The notes under the pieces: generated by a model | Seen by the model: the letters and a program-made list of their open reading frames with translations, nothing else | What the model was told of the DNA's origin: nothing | The model's database searches: none | Translations under genes and position numbers: made by a program | Assembly: GCA_016214035.1 (NCBI GenBank) | Contig: JACRPF010000016.1 | Coordinates: 1 to 64,000 of the forward strand | Source of the DNA: Spirochaetota bacterium | GTDB lineage: Bacteria > Spirochaetota > Brachyspiria > Brachyspirales > JACRPF01 | Direction of reading: 5' to 3' | DNA length: 64,000 nucleotides | Part shown: in pieces, positions 1 to 33,948 of the stretch | Position numbering within the stretch: the first letter of the stretch is position 1 | How the letters are laid out: each line of letters starts with the position of its first letter

Positions 1-1585
1 GTGGCATTCGTGCTGACGTAGACGCCGGTAATCTGACCGGACAGATTGCTTCCATAACCCTGCCCAGTTACTGTCGGGTTCGTTATCCAGGTGATAGGTG
101 CCGGGTTCGTGATACCGACAAACGGCGTGCTTCCGTTCGTCACATAGTTCGTGAAGTTGTTCGTGTATGTGAGGCCGACACCGTTCGATGCGATGACCGA
201 CAGCGGCAGCATGCCGTTCGGGAACACCAGCGCGTTCAGCGTAAACTCAAACGCCGGGCTTGTATTCGTCCAGGCGTAGAACGCACCGTTCGTATACAGC
301 ATCACCGCCGTCACGCCGCTCACGTTCTCGTAGTTCGTACCGCGATAAACGACAGTATTGCTTATCACGCTTCCATTGATGTAGTTCGTCACCGCTGCAT
401 ACGGAGCGCTGTTGTCGATGAGGTTCGTCTGATAGAAATAGTTCGTTTTGTTATTCGACGATACCGCGATGAACTCGAATGCGTTCGTACCGTCAAGCAA
501 CGAGACTGTGTTCACATTCGTCGTGAAGCTTGTGCCGTTCGTAACTAAGGCGAATGTGCCTGCGTTCGTCCGGAAGTAGACCGCAGGAGGATCGAGTATT
601 CCCGCCACATTCGTAGCATAGCCCATGAATGTCATCGTGCCGCGGTTCGTCGTGTACTGCGCGATGTTCGTCTGCGCTATAATTGGCGCCAGATTGTTAA
701 CGATGAACATCGTACTTGCCGAATTCGTGCCGATTCCAGCAACGTTCGTCGAAGTCACATACGCATAGTATGCGCCGTCAGTAACGCCGGTTGTGTTCCA
801 GTTGTTCGTGAACTCGGTACCGTTCAGGAGACCCGCTATGTTCGTCACCATGCCGCCGGCGTTCGTGATGACAACTCTCGTTACGGCAATACCGGACTGT
901 GCGTCAATATTCGTGCCGCGTATCGTGTATGTGCCGCCGATTATCTGACCGGCGGTAATGTTTGTAAATCCAACGAGCGGCGCACTTAGGTCTACATAGT
1001 TCGTCTGATAATTCGTTGCCACAAAGCCGTATTCATTGCTCGCCACCGCGTAGAATACGTTCGTTATCGGGAAGCCGGTAACCGTGACGTTCGTCGTCCA
1101 GTTCGTCGTTGTGCCGCCGGCAAGTGCGTATGCAGTCGTGGCATTCGTGCTGAAGTAGACGCCGGTAATCTGACCAAAGTCATTGCTCGCCCAGCCCTGG
1201 ATCTGCACCGTGCTGTTCGTGATCCATGCCCCTGACGGCGGATTCGTTATTGCAGCCGTCACCGTTACCGCGCCGCGCTGCGCATTCGTCGATGCGCTGA
1301 ACCAGCTCTCATTCATATACGGTGCGGCAGCATCATAGGCGGTCACAAAGTAGTAATAGGTGTTACCGAACGACACCGATGCATCGGTGAACGATGTCGC
1401 TCCGGCACCGGTAATATTCGTATAATATGCGCTGAAATTCGTCCAGGCATCTGCATTGACCGACCGGTAGACACGATAACCCGCGGTATCTCCGCCGGTA
1501 TTATTCCAGTAAATGGCGACATTGGATACGCTGTTCGAAACTCCATTGAACGCCGGGACTGCGGGTGCTGTTGTGTCCGCCTGCG
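1..1585 (-). repeat. FN3-like module and Ig-like repeat array, running off the window
   Basis: An FN3-like domain (about 1290-1585) precedes several Ig-like repeats. Their recurring parts are ITNP...W-I/V-T-N, GQITGVYxSTNAT and a closing NxFYAVASN-type strand. The DNA at 1-40 nearly repeats 1138-1177, which shows the periodic unit. The array is still in progress at position 1, so more repeats and the real C-terminus lie to the left. Confidence 0.7.
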
Positions 1586-4500
1586 CTGTGCCTATGTAAC
1601 CCAGACGATACGGCGCAACTATATTCGTATCGTTCGTACCTATTCCGCCGGACACCGCAGGATAATGAATGCTGCCCCACCAGTTATTCGACACGGCATT
1701 CCCTGCCGCATACACGGCATTCACGGTATTTGAGAATATATCATTCATGCCGACGGTATTCTGACTGGAGGCATTGGTAAAAATGACGCCTGTATCGTTC
1801 GATGTTATCACATTCAGACGCATCACTACATTCGACGAATAATCTATTCTTGTACCGGCGCCGTTCGACGAAATCGTGTTCGACAGCATCGTTACGGCGT
1901 ATGCGTTCGTCAGACTCACCGCCTCAAATTCATTATGTCCAATCGCATTATTCATGAATATACTGTTGCTTACGGTGACCGCCGCTATGCCATTCGATCC
2001 ATAATCAATACTGTTGTATCCCACGGTCACATCACCGCAATTATTGATGCTTATAGCGTTTGTATTGCTGATGAAGGTATTGCTGACGATACGCACATTC
2101 GACAGACTGTTGATCTCCCATCCGGTGCGGTTATTTATGAACAGATTGCTGTATATCTGCCCTCCGCCCTCGAACGACCACATCGACACTGCGGTGTAAT
2201 TTGATTCAAACCGGTTGTATGTCACACTCCAGTTGGTATTCGTAATGTCAGACACACTTAACGACCCATATAGCTGATTCGACACGATCCGCGCCGTCGT
2301 CAAACCGGAAAGGCCTATCGCCTGCATACTGTTATTATTGATATAATTCCCGACGAGGACAGGTGACGCGTCATTTATCTTGATCCCGAAATTCATACCC
2401 CAGCCGACACGATTGCTCATCACGGTGCCCACCGCGCCGTTCCCATACATGATATGTCCGTTACCGCCCATGCCCGAATTGGATATCGTCATGCCGTAGA
2501 TATTCACCGTGCTCGCATTCGTCACTTTGATGACGAACATCGAACCGCCGCCGTTGATTGCCGCAGCGCTGTTGTTGCCGTTCGTATACCACGGCCAGCT
2601 CATGATGGTGATATCCCGGCCTATCTCGATGCTGCTCGCGTTGTACGTGCCTGCGAACACCGCGATGGTATGTCCGTTGCTTGCCGCAATGATCGCTGAA
2701 CCGATGGTCATATAGACCGCGCCGGTATTCGTGTTCGACGCCGCTACGGAGCCGCTGTATGAAGACTCGCGGTAACCCGCATCAGGAGCATAGCCGCTGT
2801 ACGTGGCCGCGTATGGAGTGACGATAGTCCCCGCATCAACCGCTCCGCTCGATGCGTTGGTGATAACATATCCGGCAGCCGGATCTAGCTGCGGATCGAG
2901 CGTCCCCGAGGACGGGCTCAATGAGACGTTCGCCGCCCCCCATGAGTTGGCATTGTAAACATTGTAGTGATGTCGCGTGCCATCCCAGTTATCATCGTTC
3001 AGTCCGTACTGATTGTTGGCGTAGAAGATATTGTTCGTCGTGTACACTGTCGCGCCGTTGGCGATATACAGCCCGTGCCATGTGTTTCCGGCAATGGTAT
3101 TATTGACAGCAGTAACGTTCTTGGCGTCCCACGCCGCGGTTATCCCGTAGAACGATGCCCCGGCAATCAGGTTGCGTGCGACAACACCGTCGGCGGTGCG
3201 CGCAAGATTGATATTATTGCCCTGATTCGAGCGGATTTCGTTTGAGACTATGACAACGCCGTTTGTCGCCGCTACGTAAATACCGTTCCCGGTGTTGTAT
3301 GATATGACGTTGCTGTCGATGCGGTTATTGCTGTAATCGCTGATAAGCATTATACCATCGTAATTCGACTGAACATTATTGCCGTAACTGACCGAGTTAA
3401 CAACATTTGTCATCAGGATGCCGCGCGCGTTCGAAATAACGGTATTGTTCGAAGCCCCGACCTCGGCCGCGAACGGGCCGATGCATATGCCGTTGGTAAT
3501 TGCACCGGTTACGCTATTATATGAGAACACGAGATTGCTCACGTTCACGCACATGATGCCATTATCCGCGCTGCCGGTGATCGCATTCGACACCGCGTTG
3601 ATCGATGCCGCATTGGTGATGAAAAGCCCCTGATCAAAACCAATTATCTCATTGCTGATAACGCGGTTATAGAAATAGGTATCGGCCACGGCCAATCCTA
3701 TATCGCCCATACCCGACAAACGGTTGTTCATCACCACATTGCTGACAGCCTGCTGAAAGACATACAGGGCGCCTGATTTTGTGCCGCCTGTCCCGCGAAG
3801 TATGCCGGCTACCGTGTTGTTCGAAACACCGCAGTTCGTGGTGTACGCGAGCACGATGCCGCCGTTGTTGGTCGCATCGAGATTATTACTGAACACATTG
3901 TTGCCGTGCACAGCACTGCCGGCGGAGGCATAGAGCAGAATACCGTAATTCGTGAGCAGATAATTCGAGTTGAACGCGACGGTGCTGTTATCGCACCCGA
4001 AGAAAAGGCTGATGCCGTTGGATGCCCGGGTCACCGTATTACTGACGGCGTATACATTCGTCGAGAAATAGAACGAAACGCCGCCGTTATTGCTTACGAT
4101 GCTGTTGCCGGCAAAATAGGTGTTCGGCGAATACGACGCCTCGAACGCATTGCCGCCGCTGCCGGTGATATGATTGCTTACTACCCATCCGCGGCTGACG
4201 TTCGAGGTGAAATGAATGCCTCGTGCCATGCTGGAATATATCCTGTTGCCGACGAGGTAATTGCTCGCCGCACTGCTCATCACCACGCCGTTCGACGCTC
4301 CGGTTATCGTATTATCAACAAGCCCATTATTGCCGGACTGCTCACCGATAGCGACACCAACCTCTGCGCCGGTCAGTGCGTTATTCGATATATACTGTCC
4401 GTTATTGTTCGAATTCAAATATATGTTTGCAAAACGTGAGCCGGCAATGCTGTTGCTGAAGATCGCATTCGACGCATTATCGGCGGACAGCCAGATGCCG

Positions 4501-25500: not shown

Positions 25501-28500
25501 GCCCCGGGCGATGAATATGTGCGCACTTCGAAATAATCCGATTGCAACTGCCCAGCGCCGCCGGCCTTTATCCCGGTTACGATGACATGTATATAATTTG
25601 TCCCGTTGATATTCTGCAGGAACGGCGCTGCTGCTCCGAGATTCGTCTGAATCACCGTATACGCCGCAGGCGTCACCCCGCATTTCGCCCACACACCGCC
25701 GGCTTGCTTCCATACATAAATACCGCCGCCGGTCTCTGTCGTCGCTCCTTTCCAGCGTATATATACATTGGTGATGAGCATCGGCGGTCCATTGATGCGC
25801 ACACGGAACCGCTGTCCTCCATATGGAATAGCCGCCATATCTGAAATGAAGTAGGTCGCATCCTCACTATACAGGGTAGTCCCAGGAACACCCACTGCTT
25901 CACCGGGAAACGCCGGTCCGGTAGACGGCGGATCAACAGCACCGAATGCGCCGTCATTCGTATACGCTATTATTTCTACCATACCGCCCGTGGGGTATTT
26001 ATACACATTTGAGCCCGCAGGAATATTGTCAGCATAATTGGTTGTATAATCATACGACACAAGCCCCGCACTGTTGCTGGACTTAACACCGAATACCATC
26101 TGACCGTTCGAGACGGTCCATGTATCAAACATCACGGTCCATACGGAAGTAACCGGCGCTGCATTCCACATCCCTCCGTTCACATTCCACCAGAATCCGC
26201 ATGCAGGCGCCGCATTATCATAATTGGTCCCGCTGAACGCGACAACATTTGAGACCGACGCGAACGGCACATCATTGGTGATCGCGAGAGCAGGCGCACT
26301 GAAATCAAAATTATTCACCTGTATGTTGGTAAACTTCACCCCGTTGCCGTTGCTGGATACTGCATAAAAAGCATTGCTGCCGTCCGCGAATGCGCTCACA
26401 TTCACGCCGTTGGTCACCCAGTTCGTAGTACCCGATACGAGTCCGAGCGTTGCAAGATTAGTCCCGAAATAAACGGCAACGACATTCGAACCGGCGTTGC
26501 CCGAAAATGATAACGATGGTGTTGTCACCCATGCATTCGGTGCCGGGTTTGTTATCGTCACATTCGATGCGGATTCTGCGAGTGAATACGCGGATTCCTT
26601 CCACCCCATATCAGGTCCCATCCCGGCGAACACACTTGATATCCCGGGTATATTTGTTCCGCGGTCTACCGCCGCACTCGAGGCGCTCTGAATGGCATAT
26701 GTCGCAATCGAGTCGACATACGGGTTCTGTCCGCTGAGATTGCTCAGTCCCGCACTGTTTCTTCCGGATGCATTCCAGTCACCGGGCGCATTGTTGTAGA
26801 ATGCATTATAGTTGATGTCCGCACCGCCGGAAGTCCCGCTGTCGTACACGCCTGTATTGGTATTATTAAAAATAATATTATTCGCTATACGGATATTTGC
26901 GGAATCGACCCAGTCGACACCGGTACCGTTGCCGAACATCGTATTATTAAAAATATCATTGCTGCCCGCCATGATGATCGCAACACCGCGCAGATGATTT
27001 CCCATGACATTCCGGAAAACGGTGTTTGAAGGCGAGCTGCTGAGATTTACCCCCTCCTCCTGGTTTGGTCCGAGGAATTTATTTGAACAGACGATATTAC
27101 TGGCTACGGCGCTGCCGTTGAACATGAGGCCGGAGTATTTATTGTCGGCGACCGTATTGCTGACAACCCGCGAACCGCTGGCCGTATTGCCGATATAGAT
27201 GCCGTAACCGCCGTTGCTCGATATCGCGTTGCCGCTGATCTCGGTATTCCTGTTCGTCCCCTTTATAATAAGTCCAAAATCACCGTTTTTCACGACAGTA
27301 TTATTGATAAACCGGTTTGATGCCGGCACCGATGCGAAAAGCTGGATACCGAAACCGGAGTTCGTTCCTTTGTTATATCCGACATAGTTGTTCGACACCA
27401 GTGTATTGTGGCTCGGCCCGTAGATATCGATCCCTATGGCATACGGCGAATTCGGCGGCATATTACTCACAACAGTATTGTTGATTATCGTCGCGTTCGT
27501 CCCCGCGGATATACCGTATACATTGGTGACATTGATACCCGTGGTTCCGCGTACCGTATTGCCGTCGATGATGAGCGATGACGACTTCGCCGCATAGATA
27601 CCGAATGTCTCAAACGTCGCCGCCAGCGATGTATTCCCGCCCGAATCAAGCACCGTGTTGCTCTCAATGGCAACCGGTCCGGTGGTAAAAACGGAAATGC
27701 CGCTCTGCCCCGAGCGGATAATGCTATTGCCGGAGATTACTGCCGAAGCGAGCACCCCGGTCGCCATGTTGATACCCACACCGCCGCATGCTGCCCCGTC
27801 GCGGTTATCAGCTATCGTATTATCGCATATGGTATATTGTCCGTCACCCTGCTCAATAAAAATACCGTGCGCACGGAAATTGCCGCTCACCCGCCAGCCG
27901 TTGGAGCTGATGATATTATTTGAAATGAGGATTACGGTTGCAGCATCATTGCTCGCGCACCAAACCCCGTAACTGTAATTCGTCGCCAGATGATTACCGA
28001 TGACATTGCTTACGACCGTGACCGTCTTACCGGTCATCGCGAAAAGTGCAATACCGCTGCCGTCAACCGCATTACTGCCATTATAGAGGATAACATTACT
28101 TGCGATGTTTACCGGGCAGTTTTCGATACGAATACCGCCGCTCGGAGCGTTCAATGCGGGATTCGAACAGATATTGCTGATGATGATATTAAAGCGGACA
28201 TTGATCACCGCAGGACATTCCCGTGCGCGTATACCGAAGGCAGTGTCCCCGTTATTGCGTTCAATACGGTTATAGGCAATATCAGCACCGCCGGTGTTTG
28301 AATTGCAGTATATGCCGTTACCGGCGAACAACGCATGTGAATTATCGAAAATAGCATTTGACCATATGGTAGAATAACCGGCCCCCTGATTCAGGAGCAC
28401 TCCCCGTGAATCATTGTAGCAAATGCTGTTATTCCATAGATTAACAGCTCCGTTCGAACCGACGCGTATCCCCGATGACCCGTACGACAATGTGAAACCC

Positions 28501-31500
28501 TGTATCGTCGCTGTAATTGCCGTTGCCGCGTTCGACACGGTAATGGGATCGGTCGTAAGGGAGGTAGCCTTGATAATTGTGGAAGCATATGTACTGTTCG
28601 TCATCCATTCAAGGGAACGCAGCGTCAGCGATTTTGTAATGCTGAAATCACCTGTATGGATACCGTCATAGATAAGTATCATATCCCCGGCAGTCGCCGC
28701 GTTGATCGCTTCCTGTATGTTCGTATATTGCAGTGTGCTGTTCGCATTGCTTGCAACCGGCGCTACGAACGTCACGGTCCCGGCGGGAGAATACCATGAT
28801 TCATTTCCGTTGGTATCGAGAACGGTCACAAAATACCGGTAGATGCCGCCGCTGGTGAGCGTATCAATATATTGCGTTGTCGCGGAGTTGTTAATAGCGG
28901 CTATCTTTTTCACATCCGTCAGGTTTGAATAGGAATCATCGACGGTGCGGAACAGCGTATAATTACTGAAATCAATCGGTACCGATTGTCCCCATTTCAC
29001 AGTAATCTGACCCGGTGTAAGATTGGTGACCGCGATGCAGACGGCCGGCGCCGTCGGCATCGTCCAATCGTCATTCCGGCCGCCGAAAGCATTCCGCCAC
29101 GGCAGGAATGCGGCGATTGTCCCGGTGATTTTCATATCGTTATAGGTACGCGTACCATAGTAGTTGGTCGCCGCCCTCGGTGCCGTGCCGGTTACGAAAA
29201 TATTATCGCTATTGTCGACAATATTATTATTGCAGAACTGGTTCGAACAATCGACGTTTCTTATCCCGACACTATTGTTCGAGATCGTACTGTATACAAT
29301 GCTGTTTGTCCCCGCATTTGAGAAAAAGAATGCACTGCCCTGCGCTGATGCTACCGTACAATTCGATACAAACATATTGGATGTTATTGTAATCTCGAAG
29401 GCGTCATTCTGCGGCGCAAAAATCGATGATGTCAGAAATCTGCTGCTGGGGGAATTGGTCAGATAGAAAACCGATTTCAACGATTGTTCTCCGGTGATCA
29501 CCGCATTACTGAACAATGCTGATGGCGCTCTATCCATATAGAAGGACCGTAATCCTGCGTTATTCGAAAAATTCCCGCTGACGGTGCAGTTGGAGGTTAC
29601 ATATAAATATATCGCCGCGCCGTTGGTAGAGATGCTGTCACATATCGCACCGGTGAAAACGTTGCTTTTACCATAATCATAATCGATCCCGCCGCCAAAA
29701 TATGCGGTATTCCCAAACATATACGCATTGACTGAATTACTGTCAGATGCGACAAAATACAAACCGCCGCCCGATGTACTGGTGCCGGTACTTGCATTCG
29801 ATATATAATTTCCGGTGATTGTATTATTTTTACCGCCGTTCAGATACCCCCCCCCGCCGCCGTACACCGCCGTATTGCCGATGATATCGCCACTGATCAC
29901 GCTGTTGGATACTGATTCAAGATCGAAACCGCCGCCGGTCCCGACATTTCCCGTTACAGAATTCGAAATCATCGCAGAATACACCCGGTACCCGAAACCG
30001 GCCAAGACATACAATCCGCCGCCGTTCGAATAACATGTATTAAAAGAGAGTGCACTATTGCTGATCAGGGCATTTGTGCTGTAAAAAAAGAAAACACCAC
30101 CGCCGTAACGTGCGTTATTCCCGTATACGTCCCCGAGCACATTGTTTGAAACACCATAATCGATATCAATACCGCCGCCATATCCGTTCGCCATGCTATT
30201 ATAAGAGACCATACCGCGTATCGTGTTGGTCGCGCAGAGATTCAAAAACATACCGCCGCCGGAACTGTTATTGCCGAACGATATATTGCTGCTGATGTTC
30301 CCGCCGAACTCACTGAATGAAAGTTTGTACGCGAACACACCGCCGCCAGATAGGCCGGAATAATTCCCGCCGATGTTCGCCGATATATCATTGGAAATGC
30401 AATTCGATATAAATAAGCCGCCGCCGTATGAATTCGAACACTGATTGTTGAAGATATTTCCACCGATAATATTCGTTCCACTGCTTAGTATTACCAAACC
30501 GCCGCCGGAGCGAGTCCCCGGATACATGGTGTTACTGAAAATATCACCACTGATCGTAGTATAGGGCGCATTCGACAGAAAAAGACCGCCGCCAGAATCT
30601 GCGGCGTAATTCCATCCGACAGCCGCAGAAATATTGTTCGATTTACTGCTATAAATGACGATACCCGCGCCATAATCATAGACAAGTGCGTTCGTCGCGG
30701 CATTATATAGAACGGAGCCCGCGATCGCATTCGAACTGCTGCCGTTAACATAAACCCCTCCGCCGTCTCCTGCGGTAGCGATATTACTGGCTATCATATT
30801 GCTCACAAAGGTGTTCGTCGAATTATATAGAAAAATCCCTCCGCCCTGCGCAGCCCGGTTACCTACTACATCACCGGTAATGCTGTTCCCGATTCCGTAG
30901 TCAATCTCAATACCGCCGCCCAGACCGGCGTTGGTATTTGAATTGAATGATACGGCACCTGCGATCTGACAATTCGTTGTCGCCGACAATAACACACCGC
31001 CGCCGTAGGAATTTGCACCCGTTGCTGCATTACTGATAATGCTTGCATTGATCGTATGTGATGACCCGCCGTTCACAAAAATACCGCCGCCGGACGCGGA
31101 ACTGCCCGTTACACTATTTCGTATAACCAAGCCGTCAAGAACATGACCGCCGCCCATGGTGAAATATACACCGCCACCGCCGGCCACCGCAGAATTTCCG
31201 ACAATATACGAATCGACCGTGTTATTCGAACAGTACTCCAGCCAGAGACCGCCGCCCATCGATGATGCCGCGCTCCCTTTATTCGTACAATTTGTCCCGT
31301 GTATGATATTGTAATGGGCGTTTGACAAAAAAATACCGCCGCCGCCGTATACAGCGGTATTATTTGTTATCAGCGCGTCTATCAAATTCGATTCAGATCC
31401 AATGCCAAAAACGCCTCCGCCTACGGAATACGCACCGTTCGATGCGGTGTTATTATATATCTCGGCGCAAACGGTATTCGATGCTCCATACCAGAAATAC

Positions 31501-32393
31501 ACACCACCGCCCACAAAAGCACCGTTTGACCAGATCTTATTACTTACTACGGTATTGGTTGCATATGAAAGAAATATCCCTCCTGCCGAGTTGGCGCTGT
31601 TACTGCAGATATTCGCATCGATGATATTCCCGACCCCGGAACTTACGGCTACAGTACCAAACCCATTGGGTACTCTGTTATTGAAGATACTGCCGTTGAT
31701 CCGGTTATATGAACTTGACCGGATATACACACCGGAACCATATGATGTCCCTCCGCCGGTGTTACTCGCAAAATTACTCGCAATAACTGCGTTAACATTA
31801 TTGCTCATCCCGCCTATGATGAATACGCCCGTACCGCCCCATGTATTGGCGGCCCCCATATTGGTATTGAATGCAATGGTACCGCGTATCGTGTTATTCG
31901 TACCATTGTCGATAAAGACGCCGGCACCGTTCGTCGTGGAACACTGATTTGAACGGATGAGCAGGTTCACATCGTTGTTCATGCAGCGATCGATATAGAC
32001 CCCGTGTTTCCACTTTTCAACAGATAGATTCGACAGGAAAATACCGCTCGACCCGTTCGAAATAAGTATGCCGATGCCTGCGAGCGTACCGGTAAGGCGA
32101 AGCGGCGTTGTCGCATTCGTGCCCATAACAGTAAGATTGGTCTTCCCGCTGATAGTAAAAGCAGCGGTTGTGTTTGAAAATATATAAACGGTATAGTTAC
32201 TGTCCCAGGCATCAATCGCTAACTGTACAGACGTGTATTTCTGTCCTGTTGCGGAATTACTTGCGACCTGAGAAAAAAGAGACATCAGAGAACATGACAG
32301 AAAAAGGAAAATACATGCAAACGTTTTCACGACAATAGGTACACAAATACCTGAAGATACACCATATTTAAATTTGATGCGGAATGGATGCAT
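1..32393 (-). CDS. Giant secreted multi-module beta-helix / FN3 / Ig-like protein (C-terminus beyond window)
   Basis: A single minus-strand frame (codon first bases at positions equal to 2 modulo 3) stays open from 32393 to the left edge, at least 10,797 codons or over 1 MDa. I translated it near 30, 1030, 2480, 5050, 7570, 10030, 12610, 14050, 15070, 17530, 20050, 22510, 25030, 27550, 30010, 31210 and 32200. Each gave the same phase and protein style. The product starts with a signal peptide. It then alternates right-handed parallel beta-helix modules (repeats of the type SNTIxxNxxxGIxxxxSxxN) with FN3-like, Ig-like and other beta-sandwich modules. It is very rich in Asn, Thr, Ser and Gly and poor in Lys and Cys. 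By family logic it is an exported adhesin-like or carbohydrate-interacting fibre; substrate and export route cannot be told because the C-terminus is missing. Start choice: ATG 32393 has a GGTGA ribosome site 7 nt upstream and gives a 42-residue leader. GTG 32330 gives a classical short signal peptide but has no ribosome site. The frame is closed by TGA near 32434. Confidence 0.93.
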   Translation of the reverse strand, partial: MHPFRIKFKYGVSSGICVPIVVKTFACIFLFLSCSLMSLFSQVASNSATGQKYTSVQLAIDAWDSNYTVYIFSNTTAAFTISGKTNLTVMGTNATTPLRLTGTLAGIGILISNGSSGIFLSNLSVEKWKHGVYIDRCMNNDVNLLIRSNQCSTTNGAGVFIDNGTNNTIRGTIAFNTNMGAANTWGGTGVFIIGGMSNNVNAVIASNFASNTGGGTSYGSGVYIRSSSYNRINGSIFNNRVPNGFGTVAVSSGVGNIIDANICSNSANSAGGIFLSYATNTVVSNKIWSNGAFVGGGVYFWYGASNTVCAEIYNNTASNGAYSVGGGVFGIGSESNLIDALITNNTAVYGGGGIFLSNAHYNIIHGTNCTNKGSAASSMGGGLWLEYCSNNTVDSYIVGNSAVAGGGGVYFTMGGGHVLDGLVIRNSVTGSSASGGGIFVNGGSSHTINASIISNAATGANSYGGGVLLSATTNCQIAGAVSFNSNTNAGLGGGIEIDYGIGNSITGDVVGNRAAQGGGIFLYNSTNTFVSNMIASNIATAGDGGGVYVNGSSSNAIAGSVLYNAATNALVYDYGAGIVIYSSKSNNISAAVGWNYAADSGGGLFLSNAPYTTISGDIFSNTMYPGTRSGGGLVILSSGTNIIGGNIFNNQCSNSYGGGLFISNCISNDISANIGGNYSGLSGGGVFAYKLSFSEFGGNISSNISFGNNSSGGGMFLNLCATNTIRGMVSYNSMANGYGGGIDIDYGVSNNVLGDVYGNNARYGGGVFFFYSTNALISNSALSFNTCYSNGGGLYVLAGFGYRVYSAMISNSVTGNVGTGGGFDLESVSNSVISGDIIGNTAVYGGGGGYLNGGKNNTITGNYISNASTGTSTSGGGLYFVASDSNSVNAYMFGNTAYFGGGIDYDYGKSNVFTGAICDSISTNGAAIYLYVTSNCTVSGNFSNNAGLRSFYMDRAPSALFSNAVITGEQSLKSVFYLTNSPSSRFLTSSIFAPQNDAFEITITSNMFVSNCTVASAQGSAFFFSNAGTNSIVYSTISNNSVGIRNVDCSNQFCNNNIVDNSDNIFVTGTAPRAATNYYGTRTYNDMKITGTIAAFLPWRNAFGGRNDDWTMPTAPAVCIAVTNLTPGQITVKWGQSVPIDFSNYTLFRTVDDSYSNLTDVKKIAAINNSATTQYIDTLTSGGIYRYFVTVLDTNGNESWYSPAGTVTFVAPVASNANSTLQYTNIQEAINAATAGDMILIYDGIHTGDFSITKSLTLRSLEWMTNSTYASTIIKATSLTTDPITVSNAATAITATIQGFTLSYGSSGIRVGSNGAVNLWNNSICYNDSRGVLLNQGAGYSTIWSNAIFDNSHALFAGNGIYCNSNTGGADIAYNRIERNNGDTAFGIRARECPAVINVRFNIIISNICSNPALNAPSGGIRIENCPVNIASNVILYNGSNAVDGSGIALFAMTGKTVTVVSNVIGNHLATNYSYGVWCASNDAATVILISNNIISSNGWRVSGNFRAHGIFIEQGDGQYTICDNTIADNRDGAACGGVGINMATGVLASAVISGNSIIRSGQSGISVFTTGPVAIESNTVLDSGGNTSLAATFETFGIYAAKSSSLIIDGNTVRGTTGINVTNVYGISAGTNATIINNTVVSNMPPNSPYAIGIDIYGPSHNTLVSNNYVGYNKGTNSGFGIQLFASVPASNRFINNTVVKNGDFGLIIKGTNRNTEISGNAISSNGGYGIYIGNTASGSRVVSNTVADNKYSGLMFNGSAVASNIVCSNKFLGPNQEEGVNLSSSPSNTVFRNVMGNHLRGVAIIMAGSNDIFNNTMFGNGTGVDWVDSANIRIANNIIFNNTNTGVYDSGTSGGADINYNAFYNNAPGDWNASGRNSAGLSNLSGQNPYVDSIATYAIQSASSAAVDRGTNIPGISSVFAGMGPDMGWKESAYSLAESASNVTITNPAPNAWVTTPSLSFSGNAGSNVVAVYFGTNLATLGLVSGTTNWVTNGVNVSAFADGSNAFYAVSSNGNGVKFTNIQVNNFDFSAPALAITNDVPFASVSNVVAFSGTNYDNAAPACGFWWNVNGGMWNAAPVTSVWTVMFDTWTVSNGQMVFGVKSSNSAGLVSYDYTTNYADNIPAGSNVYKYPTGGMVEIIAYTNDGAFGAVDPPSTGPAFPGEAVGVPGTTLYSEDATYFISDMAAIPYGGQRFRVRINGPPMLITNVYIRWKGATTETGGGIYVWKQAGGVWAKCGVTPAAYTVIQTNLGAAAPFLQNINGTNYIHVIVTGIKAGGAGQLQSDYFEVRTYSSPGAPVVNNSAGAATVLSNSAIMRGTLEFDSGINTTVKVYYGTNDGGTVFANWSNVSDFGILSTGSFSTNITGLAADTTYYYRVYATNAEGAAWAAFTTNFVTMAGPGIASNTVTGMHYATIQKAIDAAMSGETILISDGVYTDTIVLTNKNNISIIAASWQGSNNNTKVALRGTGNGIGLFISNASGNTIQGIMLTNWDTGVKVYGTSRYNIIANNRISFNSNAGIWYAQSMSYNTNIGNTLVSNFYGILMDASHDDYAYSNYIYHNTNGISLRNASYSNYAISNNIYSNMNNGIEIDNSSERNLIAYNRVWGSTNSTGIGIYFGNYNRIEFNAVSGMGSGIDIRNTSISNTVVGNSMSSNVWQAMSMQNVDARMNTITSNRFFDMPNRPALWLRDATSNTIRLNTFENVGSMVIFEWAPNDNIIELNNCMNVSFRFVDNMGSGINKVYSNYFGTINYGDISNQMYQTPSNYYVPYRLGFVGTNQADVVPPPVPTGLTAVTNASGVVLDWPDVGGAASYKIYRKVGQDMWEKFNGPYTNTTVSIFTDTAPMGGASNYYFITALDAAGPYKNESWFSASAGAPGPASKVSNVTIGAEYVSIADAITNAQNNTSNMIVVYSGVYNEPFIRISNKNIYLVSDTWLSSSNKGGVVIQDNSTGSTGIIEVRDGAQFSMQGVTVSFAGTNWNWSPWPATAVRYIYGATGTIRDCAFDGQNKANEMVLCSDNTALYVSNSVFSGMNGTAIDSRNNAAVTAVWNRFLGSGNGTGFGVNNGNMATNYCISNYFSNYQTAVNSCGNTIAAYNEIHGGYSGIQNCHGNYMRIFNNTINGPQNGINTGVDNALVYNNIVVNCSQAGISASSGSPSVIYNDSWNNGVNYSNVTIGGGNISTAPLFVNMPANLRLTKLSPCIAAGSGYADMGCYPFVTALVVTAVNNTRMTGTVMANESNAALLAMGLSARDGATAHITAMTISNDGTSKNTLPLEYTNIRLVEDMNSNAVFDGPDTFIANGTVSGNNVNFTGLNFNVVPGSDRVLMFVYDFTNAIAGETYVVGVVGSNMITADTNGTGIEVVKYAYGNPQTVSSGLDHFVIRHTTNAFQNFPFALTIIARDAASNKITGYTGTITLSNQGAIGGQLAWTNMGGGKGILTDGGGGNNWATYTFDALDYGDAVLYVQNSAVESYNVRVVEGASGKIDNNTEGNIVVNAPPITNETLGTSYVLLSDAVAGAQVSGNRILIGAGAYTASNISIFGKNIFFYSTNVSNTIITGYAERLFSPDSGAAVSFSNLSFVFTKGGDWNYRALSYDNGATGAVIHCRFYGSNLGECAIQQYGAFTIVSNYFSGFRGRAIGLGGGTVVSNYIAGFGSGNGIYLNNTGSLVSNNIIDGVGEGVFLWGASGTIAYNLIINNQYSGIGMQGGSSPTIEHNTIVSNRENGIRVDGNPVIRNNIIVSNALNGGCYGIRVDSGTPVISYNCVWSNQNGNYNSGPGANDTNADPKFVGGFPYDYHLTSASPCLGTGFNGRDMGCFPYTADLRIMRGYNARAAATVPQTVNNIEMLQVRLYSENANAVVITNLTIRHSGTAVFPLESKITGVHLYYDNNSDGYYQSATDTLISNGNYINGSKPNWIDFTNISVVIPGGGYTNVLVTYDLVNADIGSNYAVNVYSADVRAMTNGVTVTPLGSANGSVQTVSAGIAYFSVSHDGIASVNGYEPVTITARDSNDMILPWYTGTISNWMSNSSGTIAWSTNGSPNAHGVFVTNAAGWCTYMFTNTDNGAATLYFRDNTMESNIYVKVLDSVSGKYDSNSGPIVVVPARMSNATTGMLSFTFQEAVNSASAGVTNIIYVYSNTFNVSNVMVGGRHISFIAQDWVVNGSNGATVIQGGGDFLFAVTNGSLNFTGFTLRNIGGFSNMIIGYENARGALISNNFIGNDSQYGIRVKETSPASVNIIGNVFTRFNDQAISCDGWGGGPAINTVIRGNIITNNSGFGVVFGPGTGGSVLVESNDIRAGIGGIAVGGGVTRYNLVREATNMYGGIYLANDAVALNNTIDSCIYGIMLGGWSASGVRYYNNIIINSLQYGVKNETNYDMGARGDFNCFYNNASGMYGPDVNGAMNDLYNANPLFVNAGAGDYSLSNISPCIDAGTNWGGAYNYAAMDIGYKESPYKGNLKPVLSNAYAIAPLTNGPGNMSITVPWNSNFTIAVTYSDEEYDIPGFAGWVSNIILVDFTTNNSGYGAILVGTNGGALDYSNGHEFRLSITPTNKLVFYTNVGAVSVTNDLYSLSMMPGVTNITYRVWVMSVSGNQTQVRLPDSSSNWPSITVLPHYIASNTNTGSNYMAIQAAVDSAAQGHVIIVDDSTTAAGVQFIGRTNITIMAKNMFAPVIQGAASGILISNSAKNSVIGFTVENAAVGVLITTGSFSNIFTSNIIRLNSGAGIKFDNASNNRIVRNTLCSNAGDGIEMIWGASTGNVIADNTVFGNSDGIRAYWSADGNSALSNTIYGNSARGIALTTTGWTVSYNEVRSNTSDGITLTYGSAYSNYIASNTIFGNGETGIRIHQGQMNTLHTNRIFNNVLEGIFITNGLSNTFAYNTITGHSFGVGADGTNSGYYNNIVNTSNVYVIGGVLSMPSNWFGTRIATNMKISGTVTNGTPWILGFIGSNNDWTIPASIPNTFGTNTNYQATVWWASNAPADFYCYRVFRVATNLVDSYSNLSDAMIVTNITSAAVTQFTEVPPDGTYYYLANVVDTNGNESWYGTPGVVTAISTPVNIVSNANNGSTYATIQAAMPGASNGHMLVVYPGTYNLGWTAFNGRTNVTIAAYSYLSNTNNSNTIIDTGAGGPFSFTASSGVTVKGFKFTGSQLGISITGSANMTVVNNFVSVAARQVQIDSSSNVSVVSNLITGGPNEGVEVMNTSRDTFIAYNTIATNGGKGIEVSASHGTRIQSNTILANQYSGIALISSSFTNLIVNNIIRGTYGGGSAGVYIGQNVTGMTNTRIISNIIESNGVYGIQFGNKEDGAFICSNSIGYSTNGIFANTGSAYLSIVQNRIYSNGSGNGAWDGAVYISGGTNYLASNEIFGSVNESAIYLSAPGSLIVRNLLHNNSQSGLYADGSVNNLEIYNNTVVSNDYHGLSVGAGSHTIKNNIMMSNGNAGGRYGFYENSGGAITVANNLIYGTAGQLTNDNGGTAYSANIFADPLLSNFIIASSNSPAVDMGAVIAGISSAFNGNGPDIGYFESSYTNAAAVVYVASNTNTGSNYTTIQAAVNAAANGETIVVFPGSYTESVTIAFKSNVNVIAYAWLTNSDNKVTILDGSYSSSFGFYLDRTTNCSIAGFTVSRFTNGFYANYGRSNVVANNRSISNLANGVAGSSAVYMTVASNEIWGTNDGYGIYLNVSSSNMVLSNYIHDMNTGVMFANTSVSNMVFNNRIYSNIEGVNISSGTAYSNTVISNDIGGNFNRGVNLPGTPYSFVLYNDIYGAINVNYAAITIGTSSRTNEIAFNRVFNNAGSGIGGNYSAAAGNIIASNEVRSNGRYGIYLGSSTLSRVVSNTITSNAFYGIYVSNSMSNTVQNNLIERNLTNGIRAVFTADDIFDGNIVRNHGNGSGVWLSNVTGVTVTNAVISNNTAAQGAGIDMMHVSGGMVSGDIAYNRLNGIGSGGGMRTYNSTNITILGAVHHNTATNSFGGGICIGSGSYSNIVAADVYNNTSTNSWGWGGGVVIIDSRECMVTGAVYSNISYAGGGVFMQGGGGNIINANVHHNGALSTGYGGGIQVNGSTNCRIFGTVADNYASNAFGGGIYIQLVDTCDISAQIRNNYVTVNDGGGMQLYNATNIRIYDSFITNNWSSSGSIIYLAQYVTGFSISNSIIAGTNGSAASALYETGIDLAGHTIVGNTFMTNALGTLYRDGSGATTPTTGISILNTAGHVNHDAATAYGNRVAPAIYVASNSATASIYTSVQEAVDASVSNYTVYVFMNVSNDMLSPGMNVNIAGKTNMSIVSTNNAIVAGYGGGNGFYIQNSSGITLSNIAVNNYSVGVLVSNAPGTVIANTTISNISTDIRLLSGSHGARVVNNSIFGSGTQMGIDANIGGLTNIIIRGNQISNVIIGLLTMGMNDSTVENNTFIANLDHAINLDGAASNTAVVSNSIRPTGNYGMRLGSIVDCRILSNDIRGMNSAIENLSGKRNTFAANTLFSNTVYALRSYNPLACDNIISNNTVAYGGGDGIVVDGASSNNRIVINTITSNLRNGVVLSNGAFANTVSGNAVASNASNGIYVLYSSNNTVQSNTLVGNDIGIQLEETASVFNLVRGNTITGGTVGIGLADGSRQTIESNVIAYAGWHGLYYNFTSVNTAVGNTMYSNGDSGIGVNASWSNVFRGNTVYGQPNGMTFGNVSYSNSIVSNTVVSNSDGIIVSGSSSNIIEGNTISAQTNNGIAINGVSVSNAINYNTMFSNGHYGVYVGADDADYTTVASNTFFGTNQKCGVYVLDGDYTRIISNSFTAMWPNGIILDGSAQNSMAVNNMLDGAGFEGIVIANENADGNTLQSNTIMNSTYGVRVTSGDDNRIDGNRIYKNITGVLVNGTAVSNNIAGNDCFSNQSEAIFLHHSAADYNRIASNRIYGPDQDIGIHLNGPRYTGIYSNDIMSNDMYGISFEDVAFAAVIVQNRIGDNAVAGIYLTNAKNSNNVISSNTIFGAAQSYGICMSNIISNTVTRNDIVSNASRGIGVFDSVTNTIALNNINGQQYGVEMTGGTANMLTSNWFGSLNLTAVLATNSGLTTNVFVPYRLGAVGITQGDTLSPAIPAFSGVSNTAASVILTWNNTGGDTAGYHIYRSVSNDTWTNFNSYYTNLSGAATTSFTDTAAVYGTTYYYFVTAYDTAAPYINESWFSVSTNGSPLGGPPVLSNALAFAPVTNGSNNLSVSLGPTNSFTLSVVYADAEGDAPGIGGWLTNWIAINVMTNFSGGFVIPVYTNAGPYDFTNGYTFTFTTFATQQHPFYTNVGGIAETNSLLDVAMRPGVTNISYSWWAYAVSGDATQVKYLTNINPVITIDYTPPGEPAFFTVTNTGAYHTLNVFWTNSSSVDVNRFVLEYGTNTNSGTVFTNVGTATNTTLSNLIGYALYYVRLHAVDGYSNATNYAWYACTAGDALPVLSNITASAYQTFGQSNASVRLGRTNSLTFTVVYSDAEGDIPGYAPMGASNVIYINLFTNGQFYGNPYALTNGGVPDYTNGYTFTFTTAVTQSNIMYDMSANLFTNSLYELTKQVGTNITYTWWASAVSGNTNGIDYPTNFKGHIWIDIVPPALPAVFDVTNTGLYHAVSLWWTNSVSADATNYTVEYTTNTNSGPFTVTNTGTATNIVISNLAGYVTNYFRLYAYDDLDNGQSNTWITCMTRDNTPVLSNALAIAPVTNGTSNISVVTPWNSNFTLSIVYADAEGDVAGDPAGLTNGIFLNIMTNSSYYGTLIVYTNGGAVNYTNGVTFSFSTFATQSNAFWPTPSNAFTNTFYAISLLPGVTNITYMWNARALTGDPANISYPTKFNPQIVITPNYAASNTNTGSNYLTIQSAVNAAAAGETVVVFAGMYTQQITVAKTNVSIISWPWITNTDRAAVDMNVSGNTYGWNLNGAVNCRIEGFTVRSATQYGVIMSNTSISNTVINNRICSNATAGVYIGTANAAYNNVASNIINGPSQTMGVYITGAAMSNTVRGNTIYTNTVQGMCIANGAASNLVVDNTMYSNIGPAILLSNSTTAYNQIVSNRLTGFSLSSGIICTNDPHNNSIAFNTVSRFYDGISMNSGSTNTIVGNTVSSNANAGIYCMNNSLSNIIISNSSESNVYGILVGSTSNVIVARNMSRVNSVYGIYIYASTNVHIVNNTIFSNRYDGIFWNTGCTGFALNNLIISNGFLGAPYCGIRSVSSAGTTNDFNCFTNDGGRDTNGTGYFGAGNLYGKNPLVELTNFTITNSASPLVDAGTIVSPWTAGFQGFGPDIGWVESGYVLSTVASNTNTGIPYSSLQAAVNAATNGQTVVMFDGTNTAPLSIVSKTNIVVMSWAWLTSSNRGSAVIDVRNTNNGTNVVVNNSTAVTIAGFTIQGGQYGIVAAGNSVSNAFVQNRIYSNRTYGISLPSTAAYTYIASNDVEKTIESRGVDINGGDYSTIISNKITGNWLGGIFAYGGARSNRIFNNEISSNGSGAGVQINSGSDMSNDIISNLIWSNQYGVYCNTSSWNRISGNIMNNNSGYGMYVINATNNTIEYNTVYSNTTVGIGLETGTGTRLNTIASNYVYGPGQNEGIFISGLAISNTVISNLVERNNVGIRISSATNNTVFNNAVVSNIRIGVLLYGASAVSNVISYNSVTGSTNGIVLSNGVIRNSVTSNMIDGTVSSGIRLEGATNNTFKLNTISNCVVGVLVTNASISNSFEQNNFLSQTTNIVANGTENLFFTNYFGTMNLTAVAAGIFGTNTNAYIPYRLGMVGITQADTMSPAIPAFTAVSNAASSVMVTWNNIGGDTAGYYIYRSATNNTWTNFSSYYTNLSGAASTTFTDTAVSYGTMYHYFVTAYDTAAPYANESWFSASANGTPLGNPPVLTNAQAIAPVTNGLSNISVQTPWDSNFTLSIVYADAEGDIAGDPAGLTNGIFLNIMTNSSYYGTLIVYTNGGAVNYSNGVTFSFTTFATQSNVFWPTPSNSFTNTFYDISMLSGVTNISYMWNARALTGDPANVTYPTNFANPSIGIIANFAASNTNTGMQYVSIQSAVDAATNGQTVAVYAGTNTAAVRIFGKTNLAVVSAVWLTNNNRSAAVFAGDQSTNHMLHISNSMNVRIEGFTFANTTNTNTTAALLCDINSQSNFIVNNNFISNINALYFTYASLSSVLSNSFVGNTASACYITGLGHSVRDNDFSGNSNAVIYLNNARFTMVSNNNLSSNNATAIHLWAAALSNSIVDNTITANVNGMLVFGATNNYIMRNVFTGTNQAYGVAVYPGAVQNYISANTMTSNAISGVFFLSNADANLVYNNSITGSGLHGIWLSADNASNAIFSNSIAGSRFANIYLNSNNNGQYISNNALTGAEVGVAIGEQSGNNGLVDNTITGASNGVVMSSAASNYLVGNRIYSSMARGIHFTSNVSRGWVVSNHITGSGGNAFEASYSPNTYFAGNSIVSNNGGVSFYFSTNVYAVSNTVTRASNGISLFFGCDNSTVAFNSNYLLTNYGILLYASAGSAVHGNNVFSNNLDATNNGGIVLAYTTNCGVSNNTVAGILRGTGGTKSGALYVFQQAVSNVVMNNRLSGMGDIGLAVADTYFYNRVISNEIIGFDQGLFITNAASINAVSNAITGSADNGIMCVNVSNLVFSYNSVTGAITNGICIGPFAAEVGASNNTVISNARGILMTNVVNSVSYGNNVQSNYDGIMLISDYSNNRIDSNVISYNTGNGIYVAATNGVVIVSNEIRSNQGNNINLARTADGVVARNLIAGASFYGITAAWDAKNVTAVNNTIAGNTWHGLYIANGATVYTTNNIFYANNQYGLNDDNWDGTRHHYNVYNANSWGAANVSLSPSSGTLDPQLDPAAGYVITNASSGAVDAGTIVTPYAATYSGYAPDAGYRESSYSGSVAASNTNTGAVYMTIGSAIIAASNGHTIAVFAGTYNASSIEIGRDITIMSWPWYTNGNNSAAAINGGGSMFVIKVTNASTVNIYGMTISNSGMGGNGHIMYGNGAVGTVMSNRVGWGMNFGIKINDASPVLVGNYINNNSMQAIGLSGLTTARIVSNQLYGSLSVSDITNTNWSVTYNRFESNYTAVSMWSFEGGGQIYSNLFINNRTGWEINSLSNVRIVSNTFISNTNAISINNCGDVTVGYNSIDYGSNGIAAVTVSNSIFMNNAIGHNEFEAVSLTNAYAVTMLSNTISSNGAGTRIDYSSNVVMRLNVITSNDTGVIFTNASSQNTVGMNDIFSNTVNAVYAAGNAVSNNWWGSIHYPAVSGGIGTNDTNIVAPYRLGYIGTAQADTTAPAVPAFNGVSNSVSNVAIYWNNTGGDTAGYRVYRSVNADAWTNFSAYYTNITGAGATSFTDASVSFGNTYYYFVTAYDAAAPYMNESWFSASTNAQRGAVTVTAAITNPPSGAWITNSTVQIQGWASNDFGQITGVYFSTNATTAYALAGGTTTNWTTNVTVTGFPITNVFYAVASNEYGFVATNYQTNYVDLSAPLVGFTNITAGQIIGGTYTIRGTNIDAQSGIAVTRVVITNAGGMVTNIAGLLNGTEFTNNWNTTGVTDGAYYAYVTSTNVAGIGTNSASTMFIVNNLAPIIAQTNIAQYTTNRGTMTFMGYATNVAGILDPPAVYFRTNAGTFALVTNGTSFTTNVNTVSLLDGTNAFEFIAVSSNNKTNYFYQTNLIDNSAPYAAVTNYINGSVISNTVVYRGTNYENVSGVTAVMLYTNGAFYAWTNTSPAFEFTLNALVFPNGMLPLSVIASNGVGLTYTNNFTNYVTNGSTPFVGITNPAPITWITNPTVTGQGYGSNLSGQITGVYVSTNA
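1585..5345 (-). other. Beta-helices H13 and H14 of the giant protein
   Basis: H13 enters at about 5280-5345 (ASNTNTGMQYVSIQSAVDAA) and runs about 850 residues to an exit reading GYAPDAGYRESSY near 2780. H14 enters directly afterwards at about 2680-2755 (NTGAVYMTIGSAIIAASNG) and is shorter, about 370 residues. It ends in the PYRLGYIGTAQADT linker near 1590-1640. Confidence 0.7.
5345..6130 (-). repeat. FN3-like plus ADAEGD sandwich pair, duplicate of 8915-9380 in part
   Basis: An FN3-like domain (about 5825-6130, ending NESWFSAS) is followed by an ADAEGD sandwich (about 5345-5825). The sandwich DNA is closely related to 8900-9370, including an identical 56-bp run at 5611-5666 and 9160-9215. 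The copies are 3,549 bp apart, a multiple of three, so the duplication is in frame. Confidence 0.8.
6130..8915 (-). other. Beta-helices H11 and H12 of the giant protein
   Basis: H11 enters at about 8830-8910 (ASNTNTGSNYLTIQSAVNAA) and exits with GFGPDIGWVESGY near 7560-7610. H12 follows directly with entry motif NTGIPYSSLQAAVNAATNG at about 7490-7560 and ends at the PYRLGMVGITQADT linker near 6130-6185. Two helices joined without an FN3-like spacer is the less common arrangement in this protein. Confidence 0.7.
8915..11165 (-). repeat. Array of alternating FN3-like and ADAEGD beta-sandwich modules
   Basis: From N- to C-terminus I read: FN3-like (10860-11165, ending NESWFSVS); ADAEGD sandwich (about 10370-10860); FN3-like (about 10110-10400); SDAEGD sandwich (about 9660-10110); FN3-like (about 9380-9660); ADAEGD sandwich (about 8915-9380). 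The three sandwich copies share NGYTFTFTTF or NGVTFSFSTF, YADAEGD or YSDAEGD, and a closing TYxWWA or TYMWNA strand. The last copy is a close duplicate of 5345-5820. Confidence 0.7.
11165..13690 (-). other. Beta-helix H10 of the giant protein
   Basis: The entry motif ASIYTSVQEAVDASVSNYTV lies at about 13640-13710. About 840 residues of regular coils (GIxxxxxSxNxIxxNTxxxN) follow. The module closes with PYRLGAVGITQGDT near 11165-11215, the linker that also precedes FN3-like domains elsewhere in the protein. Confidence 0.7.
13690..15800 (-). other. Beta-helix H9 of the giant protein
   Basis: The entry motif ASNTNTGSNYTTIQAAVNAA lies at about 15705-15790. Beta-helix coils continue for about 700 residues. 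The first two thirds use GIY/GIYL coils; the last part (about 14000-14600) switches to GGG coils like those of H1. The exit is less regular than in other modules: a short linker precedes the next entry motif near 13680. Confidence 0.65.
15800..19030 (-). other. YSDEEYD beta-sandwich, helix H7, FN3-like module and helix H8
   Basis: About 18555-19030 encodes a beta-sandwich whose core strand reads FTIAVTYSDEEYD, related to the ADAEGD modules near 5700, 9230 and 10730. Helix H7 enters at about 18475-18550 (ASNTNTGSNYMAIQAAVDSA) and runs to about 17520. An FN3-like domain of the second subtype (17230-17520) ends NGNESWYGTPG. Helix H8 enters at about 17140-17215 and exits with GNGPDIGYFESSY near 15820. 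Confidence 0.65.
19030..23760 (-). other. Beta-helices H4, H5 and H6 with two paired beta-sandwich / calcium-motif inserts
   Basis: Helix entry motifs are seen at about 23690-23755, 21810-21885 and 20000-20070. Exit signatures are YADMGCYPF near 22750, GRDMGCFPY near 20945 and MDIGYKESPY near 19040. Between H4 and H5, and again between H5 and H6, lies the same two-part insert. The first part carries a Ca-binding-like acidic loop (EDMNSNAVFDGPDTF near 22530; YYDNNSDGYYQSATDT near 20720). The second is a beta-sandwich with a TGYTGTITLSN / PWYTGTISNW strand. It ends in a near-repeat, SGKIDNNTEGNIVV / SGKYDSNSGPIVVV. Confidence 0.65.
23770..25190 (-). other. Beta-helix H3 and following FN3-like module
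   Basis: The entry motif TVTGMHYATIQKAIDAAMSG lies at about 25110-25190. Beta-helix coils follow down to about 24060. The module ends with the linker PYRLGFVGTNQAD, which recurs as PYRLGxVGITQxD or similar at about 11170, 6140 and 1600. Positions 23770-24055 encode an FN3-like domain ending NESWFSAS, closely related to those near 10860, 5830 and 1300. Confidence 0.7.
25190..26590 (-). other. Ig-like, jelly-roll-like and FN3 insert of the giant protein
   Basis: After helix H2 the chain runs through two Ig-like units (ITNPAPNAW..., then ITNDVPFAS...) similar to those at 1-1290. Next comes a segment of about 150 residues with few repeats (containing GGGIYVWKQAGGVW), then an FN3-like domain (LAADTTYYYRVYATNAEG). 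No catalytic motif is visible. It resembles a spacer or binding insert between helices. Confidence 0.55.
26590..29080 (-). other. FN3-like module (second subtype) followed by beta-helix H2
   Basis: Positions about 28770-29080 encode an FN3-like domain containing YTLFRTVDDSYSNL and ending NGNESWYSPAG. The helix entry motif ANSTLQYTNIQEAINAATAG follows at about 28670-28760. About 700 residues of beta-helix coils come next. The module closes with the exit signature GPDMGWKES near 26590-26640, a variant of the D-I/M-G-x-x-E strand that ends most helices in this protein. Confidence 0.7.
29080..32260 (-). other. Module H1: N-terminal Gly-triplet beta-helix of the giant protein
   Basis: It opens with the entry motif SNSATGQKYTSVQLAIDAW followed by a YTVYIFSNTT strand. 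It continues for about 1,050 residues as short coils with a recurrent GGG triplet (for example GGGIFLS, GGGVYFW, GGGLYV) alternating with NNT/SNN turns. This Gly-triplet coil is the longest single helix in the window. It differs from most later modules, which use GIY/GIxL coils instead. It ends near a GRNDDWT-type linker. Confidence 0.75.
32262..32330 (-). other. Signal peptide of the giant protein
   Basis: Read from the GTG at 32330, the protein begins MKTFACIFLFLSCSLMSLFS and continues QVAS. This is one positive residue, a hydrophobic core and a polar cleavage region, a textbook Sec signal of about 21-23 residues. If translation starts at ATG 32393, the same core is preceded by a 21-residue basic/aromatic extension (MHPFRIKFKYG...). 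That resembles the extended signal peptide regions seen on some very large autotransported proteins. The comparison is only by analogy. Confidence 0.8.
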
Positions 32394-32552
32394 CAGATAT
32401 TCACCATATAAGGATAGGCAGAGAACATAGACAATTCAGACTCCATGAAGCCTATTGCCGGAGTTGGTGAACAAGGGAAACTTAGACGATGGTCAACTAC
32501 CATCCAAAACCGACTTATAGGTATAACAAATTATCGGCTAAAAGGGGAACAA

Positions 32553-32898: not shown

Positions 32899-33948
32899 GT
32901 GAACGAACGCGTATTGATGAAAGGCAATGAAGCGATGGCGGAATCGGCCGTTATCGCAGGCTGCCGATACTATTTCGGTTACCCGATAACCCCCCAGAAC
33001 GATGTCCCTGAATATATGTCCCGCCGCATGCCCGAAGTGGGCGGTGTGTTCCTCCAGGCGGAAAGCGAAGTTGCCGCGATCAATATGGTGCTCGGCGCTT
33101 CCGCATCCGGCAAGCGTGTCATGACATCATCTTCGTCGCCCGGCATCAGCCTCAAACAGGAAGGTATATCATACCTCGCCGGCTGTAATCTTCCCGCCGT
33201 CGTCGCGAACATCACCCGTGCGGGCCCGGGACTCGGCGACGTGACTGTTGCACAGAGCGATTACTTCCAGGCCACACGCGGCGGCGGACACGGCGATTAC
33301 CGTACTCCAACACTCATGCCCGGCAATGTACAGGAACTTGCCGACATGACTGTCATGGCATTCGACATCGCCGACAAATACCGTACACCGGTGATGATAC
33401 TCGCCGATGCGACTATCGGTCAGATGATGGAACCTATCATTTTGCCACAACCGCCAACAAAGACGTATGATAAGCCTTGGGCGCTTACCGGCGCGAAAGG
33501 CAGAAAAAAGAATGTCATCCGCTCACTATGGCTTTTCCCCGACCTCGGTCTCCCGATGAACAACGAACAGCTGCAGCGCAAATATGCCGAGATTGAAAAA
33601 GAATACCGCATGTATGAAGAATATATGACCGACGATGCAGACTATCTGTTCGTCGCATACGGCACAACCGCGCGAATGGTCAAAGAAGTGATACAGACGC
33701 TCCGCGGCGAAGGCATTAAAGCGGGTCTGTTCCGGCCGAAGATGGGCTGGCCGTATCCTTACACGGAACTCCGTGCATGCGCGAAAAACAAAAAGTTCGC
33801 GCTCACCGTCGAGATGAGCTATGGCCAGATGGTGGACGATGTGCGCATCGGCATCAACGGCGACATACCGGTATATTTCCACGGCAGAGCCGGCGGTGTT
33901 ATCCCGACTACCAAAGAGATCATCGCGGCGATGAAAGGACACATGTAA
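32899..33948 (+). CDS. vorB: 2-oxoacid:ferredoxin oxidoreductase, alpha subunit (VorB-like)
   Basis: This is the pyruvate/2-oxoisovalerate-type ferredoxin oxidoreductase subunit of 349 residues that carries the pyrimidine-binding domain. GYPITPQ at residues 27-33 and QAESEVAAI at about 53-61 match VorB/KorA proteins. It oxidatively decarboxylates 2-oxoacids with CoA, passing electrons to ferredoxin, in the cytoplasm. Start GTG 32899 follows a GGGAG ribosome site. It heads an operon with the beta and gamma subunits immediately downstream. Substrate preference (branched-chain versus 2-oxoglutarate) cannot be settled from sequence inspection; overall length and style favour the 3-methyl-2-oxobutanoate type. 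Confidence 0.88.
   Translation: MNERVLMKGNEAMAESAVIAGCRYYFGYPITPQNDVPEYMSRRMPEVGGVFLQAESEVAAINMVLGASASGKRVMTSSSSPGISLKQEGISYLAGCNLPAVVANITRAGPGLGDVTVAQSDYFQATRGGGHGDYRTPTLMPGNVQELADMTVMAFDIADKYRTPVMILADATIGQMMEPIILPQPPTKTYDKPWALTGAKGRKKNVIRSLWLFPDLGLPMNNEQLQRKYAEIEKEYRMYEEYMTDDADYLFVAYGTTARMVKEVIQTLRGEGIKAGLFRPKMGWPYPYTELRACAKNKKFALTVEMSYGQMVDDVRIGINGDIPVYFHGRAGGVIPTTKEIIAAMKGHM

Follow-up and report, generated by a model that had tools for sequence, protein, structure and literature searches.

The giant open reading frame and its surroundings

The window analysed here is the whole stretch of 64,000 nucleotides at the start of contig C13 (137,491 bp; G000:C13:1-64000) of a Spirochaetota genome of 5.21 Mb in 22 contigs, which is 98.2% complete and is called G000 in this study. 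A minus-strand open reading frame of 32,391 bp begins at position 32393 and is still open at the contig edge, and with this length it exceeds the 20 kb single-ORF criterion for bacterial giant genes. Its stop-to-stop span is 10,811 codons (3..32435), and an SD-like GGTGA lies 7 nt 5' of the ATG. Base 1 of the window is base 1 of the contig, so the 3' end of the gene is the contig end and the C-terminus is absent from the assembly. The leftward extension that the first-pass annotation had suggested for reaching the C-terminus stops there, and searches of G000 at the DNA, protein and sorting-domain profile level gave no candidate for it at the other contig edges. The features of the locus are as follows.

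3..32393, minus: giant open reading frame, ATG start, 10,797 codons, 5' complete, 3' end lost at the contig end
32268..32393, minus: Sec-type signal region, residues ~1-42, ...CIFLFLSCSLMSLFSQ/VASN, from a hydrophobicity scan
1590..32261, minus: 14 right-handed beta-helix domains, from Pfam PF13229 and PF05048 above cut-off and a custom N-cap profile
28767..29066, minus: FN3-like linker domain 1, profile built in this study (as for domains 2 to 7)
23760..24047, minus: FN3-like linker domain 2
17238..17534, minus: FN3-like linker domain 3
10857..11156, minus: FN3-like linker domain 4
9369..9656, minus: FN3-like linker domain 5
5826..6125, minus: FN3-like linker domain 6
1275..1574, minus: FN3-like linker domain 7
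18570..19016, minus: unnamed module of ~148 residues, copy 1, profile built in this study
10404-10847, 9663-10106, 8925-9365 and 5373-5816, minus: copies 2-5 of the same module
3..1259, minus: first part of an Ig-like repeat array (residues 10379-10797), truncated where the contig stops
32615..32687, minus: tRNA-Thr, just upstream of the giant gene on the same strand
32899..34698, plus: divergent 2-oxoacid:ferredoxin oxidoreductase genes (POR_N, TPP), 85% and 81% identical to G001:C69

The neighbours of the giant gene are found in the same order, with 81-85% identity, in G001, which belongs to a sister genus of the same family; contig C13 is thus not a contaminant. Beside the POR_N, TPP and 280-aa genes, G001:C69 carries a complete CTD protein of 1,682 codons followed by a PorV-like gene. 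By synteny this protein was a candidate for a direct ortholog of the giant, and it was rejected because its modules are nearer to two other G000 proteins, on contigs C1 and C2, than to the giant. The shared position together with the divergent modules indicates that the locus is kept as a site for such proteins while its content is exchanged or expanded.

Integrity of the reading frame

The first-pass annotation had claimed one minus-strand frame of at least 10,797 codons, bounded by a signal peptide at one end and open at the other, with a product of more than 1 MDa. The computed translation agrees with all of these points: there are zero stop codons from 32393 to 3, the frame reaches the contig edge without a stop and the mass is 1.133 MDa, the missing C-terminus not counted. 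The same DNA has 488 and 493 stops in the two other forward frames and 164, 397 and 608 in the reverse frames, hence the open frame is not due to chance. Codon usage learned from eight neighbouring genes ranked frame 0 first of the six in 105 out of 105 windows of 900 nt, which leaves no sign of a frameshift, and both chance and a frameshift were discarded as causes of the open frame. Synonymous codon usage correlates with that of the neighbouring genes at 0.84. Paired modules, within the giant and between relatives, differ mostly at synonymous sites (dN/dS 0.09-0.40). N, G, S, T and A are abundant in the protein, and K makes up just 0.9% of it.

The signal peptide corresponds to a hydrophobic stretch (residues ~11-40) that is preceded by basic residues; this call relies on a hydrophobicity scan, with the cleavage site placed by eye. 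It is the sole hydrophobic segment of the whole protein, so no internal start would yield a product with its own signal peptide. A promoter and start inside the region, which the first-pass annotation had named as something that could split it, thus has no second signal segment to go with it, and promoter-like counts are near or somewhat above the shuffle expectation (32 vs 26.4, 39 vs 25.1). The 5' half of the gene contains more terminator-like sequences than expected (23, expectation 13.7). No hairpin in the frame is stronger than the one at 31361-31332 on the minus strand, which has 11 pairs followed by a T run; it overlies codons of the recurrent GGGGIF motif and is presumably a by-product of coding.

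An assembly error, a hidden frameshift or internal starts could make the frame an artefact or a set of several proteins, and the MAG-like assembly, the contig ending within the gene and the strong hairpin speak for this. Set against it are the stop counts and coding scores, the purifying selection between modules, the single signal segment and the flanking synteny, as well as related very long frames that fill whole contigs in independent assemblies (G001:C84 and G063:C299). The artefact or multiple-product reading is largely refuted and we give it a very small probability. The frame is a single real, continuous, coding gene.

Domain architecture

Pfam Beta_helix and NosD matches run along the full length of the giant, and the 14 beta-helix domains are separated by linker modules. 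The helix N-caps are at residues 45, 1215, 2405, 2884, 3502, 4108, 4618, 5061, 5539, 6233, 7832, 8281, 9016 and 9886. Copies 4 and 5 of the ~148-residue module are 87% identical with a dN/dS of 0.09. The Ig-like array at the open end shares 61-74% identity with the arrays of G000:C10 and G001:C21, both of which continue to a T9SS sorting domain. This architecture, the paralogs and the T9SS link described below were absent from the first-pass annotation.

The AlphaFold model of one helix plus FN3 unit (residues 8276-8870), for which the input alignment consisted of 13 related units, has a pLDDT of 81.5 and regular three-strand rungs. A model of the Ig array was set aside with a pLDDT of 50. Foldseek matched the modelled helix unit to AlgG, AlgE4, NosD and tailspikes with low TM-scores, which we put down to solenoids sliding in register. 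These matches fix the fold and not the function.

The nearest solved folds and sequences include the mannuronan C5-epimerases AlgG and AlgE besides tailspikes, and together with a weak match to the AlgG model they raise the possibility that the giant carries tandem epimerase or lyase domains and works as an enzyme array on acidic polysaccharides. The AlgG equivalog (NF038177), however, scores 24 bits where 700 would be needed, and the NosD copper maturation protein model (TIGR04247) reaches 185.6 bits over nine stretches against a subfamily cut-off of 300. Searches with the Pfam and NCBIfam profiles gave no catalytic family on the giant beyond the generic helix models, and AlgG-like similarity (phmmer, NCBIfam) is confined to one of the 14 helices, at residues 4739-4868. 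An enzyme array is thus improbable. NosD, AlgG and the solved structures were dropped as functional labels, as they yield a generic fold only. Known members of the PF13229 and PF05048 families (NosD, AlgG, AlgE) share the fold of the giant's helices and are mostly single-domain enzymes or periplasmic proteins, whereas the giant has 14 helices per chain and no curated catalytic family above cut-off.

Related proteins in the same and other genomes

A complete paralog of 4,604 codons is found on G000:C10. It is shorter than the giant and consists of the same module types, namely three helices, FN3-like domains and long Ig arrays, and its identity to the giant's Ig array is 74%. It ends in a Por_Secre_tail domain (TIGR04183) above cut-off. 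Further CTD proteins of G000 have 2,986 (C2), 2,935 (C1) and 1,682 (C18) codons.

The nearest kin of the giant in G001 is contig C84 (1-15405; 15,405 bp), which is filled completely by one open frame of 5,135 codons. It has the same module types as the giant and is shorter, with blocks that are 45-57% identical in the helix and FN3-like parts and shuffled in order. C84 terminates in an Ig array, and its last 55 bases recur inside G001:C21, with which it has 48 31-mers in common; with C127 it has none. C21 opens within that array, and after 2,108 codons its frame closes with a CTD-like tail (20.1 bits, cut-off 23). Given the sequence shared by C84 and C21, the G001 giant probably comprises some 7,200 codons or more. 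Directly after this probable C-terminus, C21 encodes a TPR-rich protein (1,166 codons; L054:6339-9836). This TPR gene was considered as a synteny bridge and abandoned, since it has merely a weak match in G000.

Contig C299 of G063 (16,883 bp) is likewise a single open frame, of 5,627 codons. Across 296 sampled genomes of the phylum, in a comparison that covered frames with related helix units and was not exhaustive for ORF length, the next-largest frames after the giant have 5,627, 5,135, 4,604 and 4,120 codons. Of these four, two or more are also truncated by contig ends. The suggestion of the first-pass annotation that the gene is among the largest of its phylum fits these numbers. A search of named genomes with the N-terminal 600 residues gave no match, and with the Ig array the sole match was the record of G040, a genome of the same phylum. 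The text of a Brachyspira hyodysenteriae paper mentions no giant protein. The giant probably grew as its modules were duplicated and shuffled inside the genome.

Candidate export machinery

Sorting-domain matches were found at 27 places in G000, of which 25 are above the TIGR04183 cut-off. All eight homologous C-termini that we saw carry a CTD-like tail (C1, C2, C10 and C18 of G000; C21, C69 and C127 of G001; C101 of G040), the one on G001 C21 being below cut-off and the one of G040 being read by eye. Two genes downstream of the C10 paralog lies a PorV_fam protein (NF033709) with 101.9 bits and a cut-off of 90, which falls short of the stricter PorV equivalog. A PorV-like gene also directly follows the substrates on C1, G001 C69 and G001 C127, and after the one on C2 the start of such a gene is present at the contig end. 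The position of PorV-family genes beside large sorting-domain proteins suggests that they may be dedicated shuttles.

An ORF of 2,255 codons on G000 C22 (L065:4882-11496) matches TIGR04189 with an E-value of 5.7e-21 and 73.5 bits, against an equivalog cut-off of 200. It had no match in the PDB, SprA included. Four other Spirochaetota proteins match the same model, the best with an E-value of 4.8e-41. Judged by these profile scores, the C22 ORF is probably a real but distant SprA homologue. Several Spirochaetota families have SprA-like proteins of ~1,900-2,250 residues, which score under the SprA equivalog cut-off. In G000 the PorU sortase model NF033707 matches just with its CTD part, and the GldM/PorM motor model TIGR03517 has no match. 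From these profile searches, we refer to the export system of G000 as T9SS-like rather than as a proven T9SS, and we infer the link of the giant to it, including a sorting domain, from the paralogs. The exported single product of the first-pass annotation is consistent with the N-terminal signal and the paralogs' sorting domains, on which the predicted export is based.

Beta-helix passengers are typical of the T5SS. Such T5-like autotransport, a T1SS or a Sec-only lipoprotein pathway would be other ways to export the giant, the C-terminus of which lies beyond the assembly and the signal of which contains a cysteine (LFLSC). Against these routes, the homologous C-termini found are all CTD-like tails and not beta-barrels, while the lipobox is non-canonical and missing from the paralogs. 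We regard export by one of these routes as doubtful.

A putative surface fibre

Our preferred reading, which we consider probable, is that this one real gene encodes a giant surface-anchored fibre, an adhesin or scaffold, with divergent T9SS-like export. The chain would be exported by Sec via its N-terminal signal, and the missing C-terminus would carry further Ig-like modules and a Por_Secre_tail-type sorting domain. Guided by this C-terminal domain, the protein would pass the outer membrane by a divergent T9SS-like route, with the SprA-like channel and a PorV-family shuttle that is probably encoded just downstream of the gene, and this route would retain it on the cell surface. The helices comprise ~7,650 residues, which at ~24 residues per rung and a rise of ~0.48 nm would give a stiff rod of ~150 nm, plus linkers and hinges. 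Such a hinged rod could project from the cell and bind other cells, polysaccharide or a surface; the adhesin role is proposed by analogy.

Instead of being anchored as a projecting fibre, the giant might leave the cell after secretion or become part of a matrix or sheath. A passage in PMC10202324 describes T9SS substrates as either released or anchored, and covalent anchoring of the Porphyromonas type is unsupported, since the PorU sortase was undetected. The PorV-family genes adjoining large substrates, as suggested dedicated shuttles, argue against this, and in Flavobacterium johnsoniae substrate-linked shuttle proteins of the analogous PorP/SprF type also decide the final localisation (PMC12618676). 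The repeated rod-and-hinge layout fits a tethered fibre as well as a matrix. Release or incorporation into a matrix is rather unlikely in our view, though less so than the enzyme array or the other export routes.

The anchored fibre that we favour resembles SprB of F. johnsoniae, a 669 kDa gliding adhesin exported by the T9SS that forms a surface filament (PMC7918930). Both would be giant repeat-rich surface filaments with T9SS export, which for the spirochaete protein is predicted from sequence. SprB, from the Bacteroidota, has ~60% of its size, carries a CTD of type B and is known to act in gliding, whereas the spirochaete giant is a beta-helix concatemer with type A-like CTDs on its paralogs, set beside SprB by description.

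Giant genes were stated in the first-pass annotation to be known from Chlorobium and Omnitrophota, and they are also known outside those two groups (PMC11573180). The Omnitrophota Velamenicoccus archaeovorus has an ORF of 39,678 aa (PMC10066038), so the size of the spirochaete giant alone is not new. The Omnitrophota giants are similar in being single ORFs of more than 20 kb, mainly from uncultured genomes, with a proposed extracellular or adhesive role. Annotated domains are scarce in them and predicted membrane helices numerous, while in the spirochaete giant the helix domains are clear and no membrane segment lies inside the chain, and its paralogs bear sorting domains. Giant surface proteins of bacteria have been described before; a beta-helix giant in Spirochaetota is new.

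A 2016 survey detected the T9SS in 60 of 97 Bacteroidota genomes and none elsewhere (PMC4793230), and the later T9SS literature that we found likewise places it in Bacteroidota only. Uncultured Spirochaetota with sorting domains, PorV-family genes and SprA-like proteins would broaden this range. We tentatively propose, at somewhat less than even confidence, that deep-branching Spirochaetota possess a reduced, divergent T9SS with module-shuffled giant beta-helix fibres as its main load, the giant of more than 1.13 MDa being the largest seen. As part of the same proposal, this system would consist of a SprA-like channel and substrate-linked PorV-type shuttles, without a recognisable GldM motor or PorU sortase. 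If its largest cargo exceeds 1.1 MDa, the question arises how the machine moves a chain of ten thousand residues, and whether it is folded or unfolded en route. Such giants hide in ordinary MAGs: in each of two related genomes a single frame, truncated on both sides, occupies an entire contig.

Across their unrelated folds, the giant CTD proteins show a ~2-4 fold enrichment of the dipeptide [ST]N that N[ST] does not share. This includes positions 3-32393 of the window, the proteins on G000 C10, C1, C2 and C18 and the one on G040 C101. In smaller CTD proteins the enrichment is 1.4-2.8 fold and in most non-CTD exported proteins 0.4-1.6. Within the Ig array the TN columns do not vary, and [ST]N may serve as a motif for modification at the surface.
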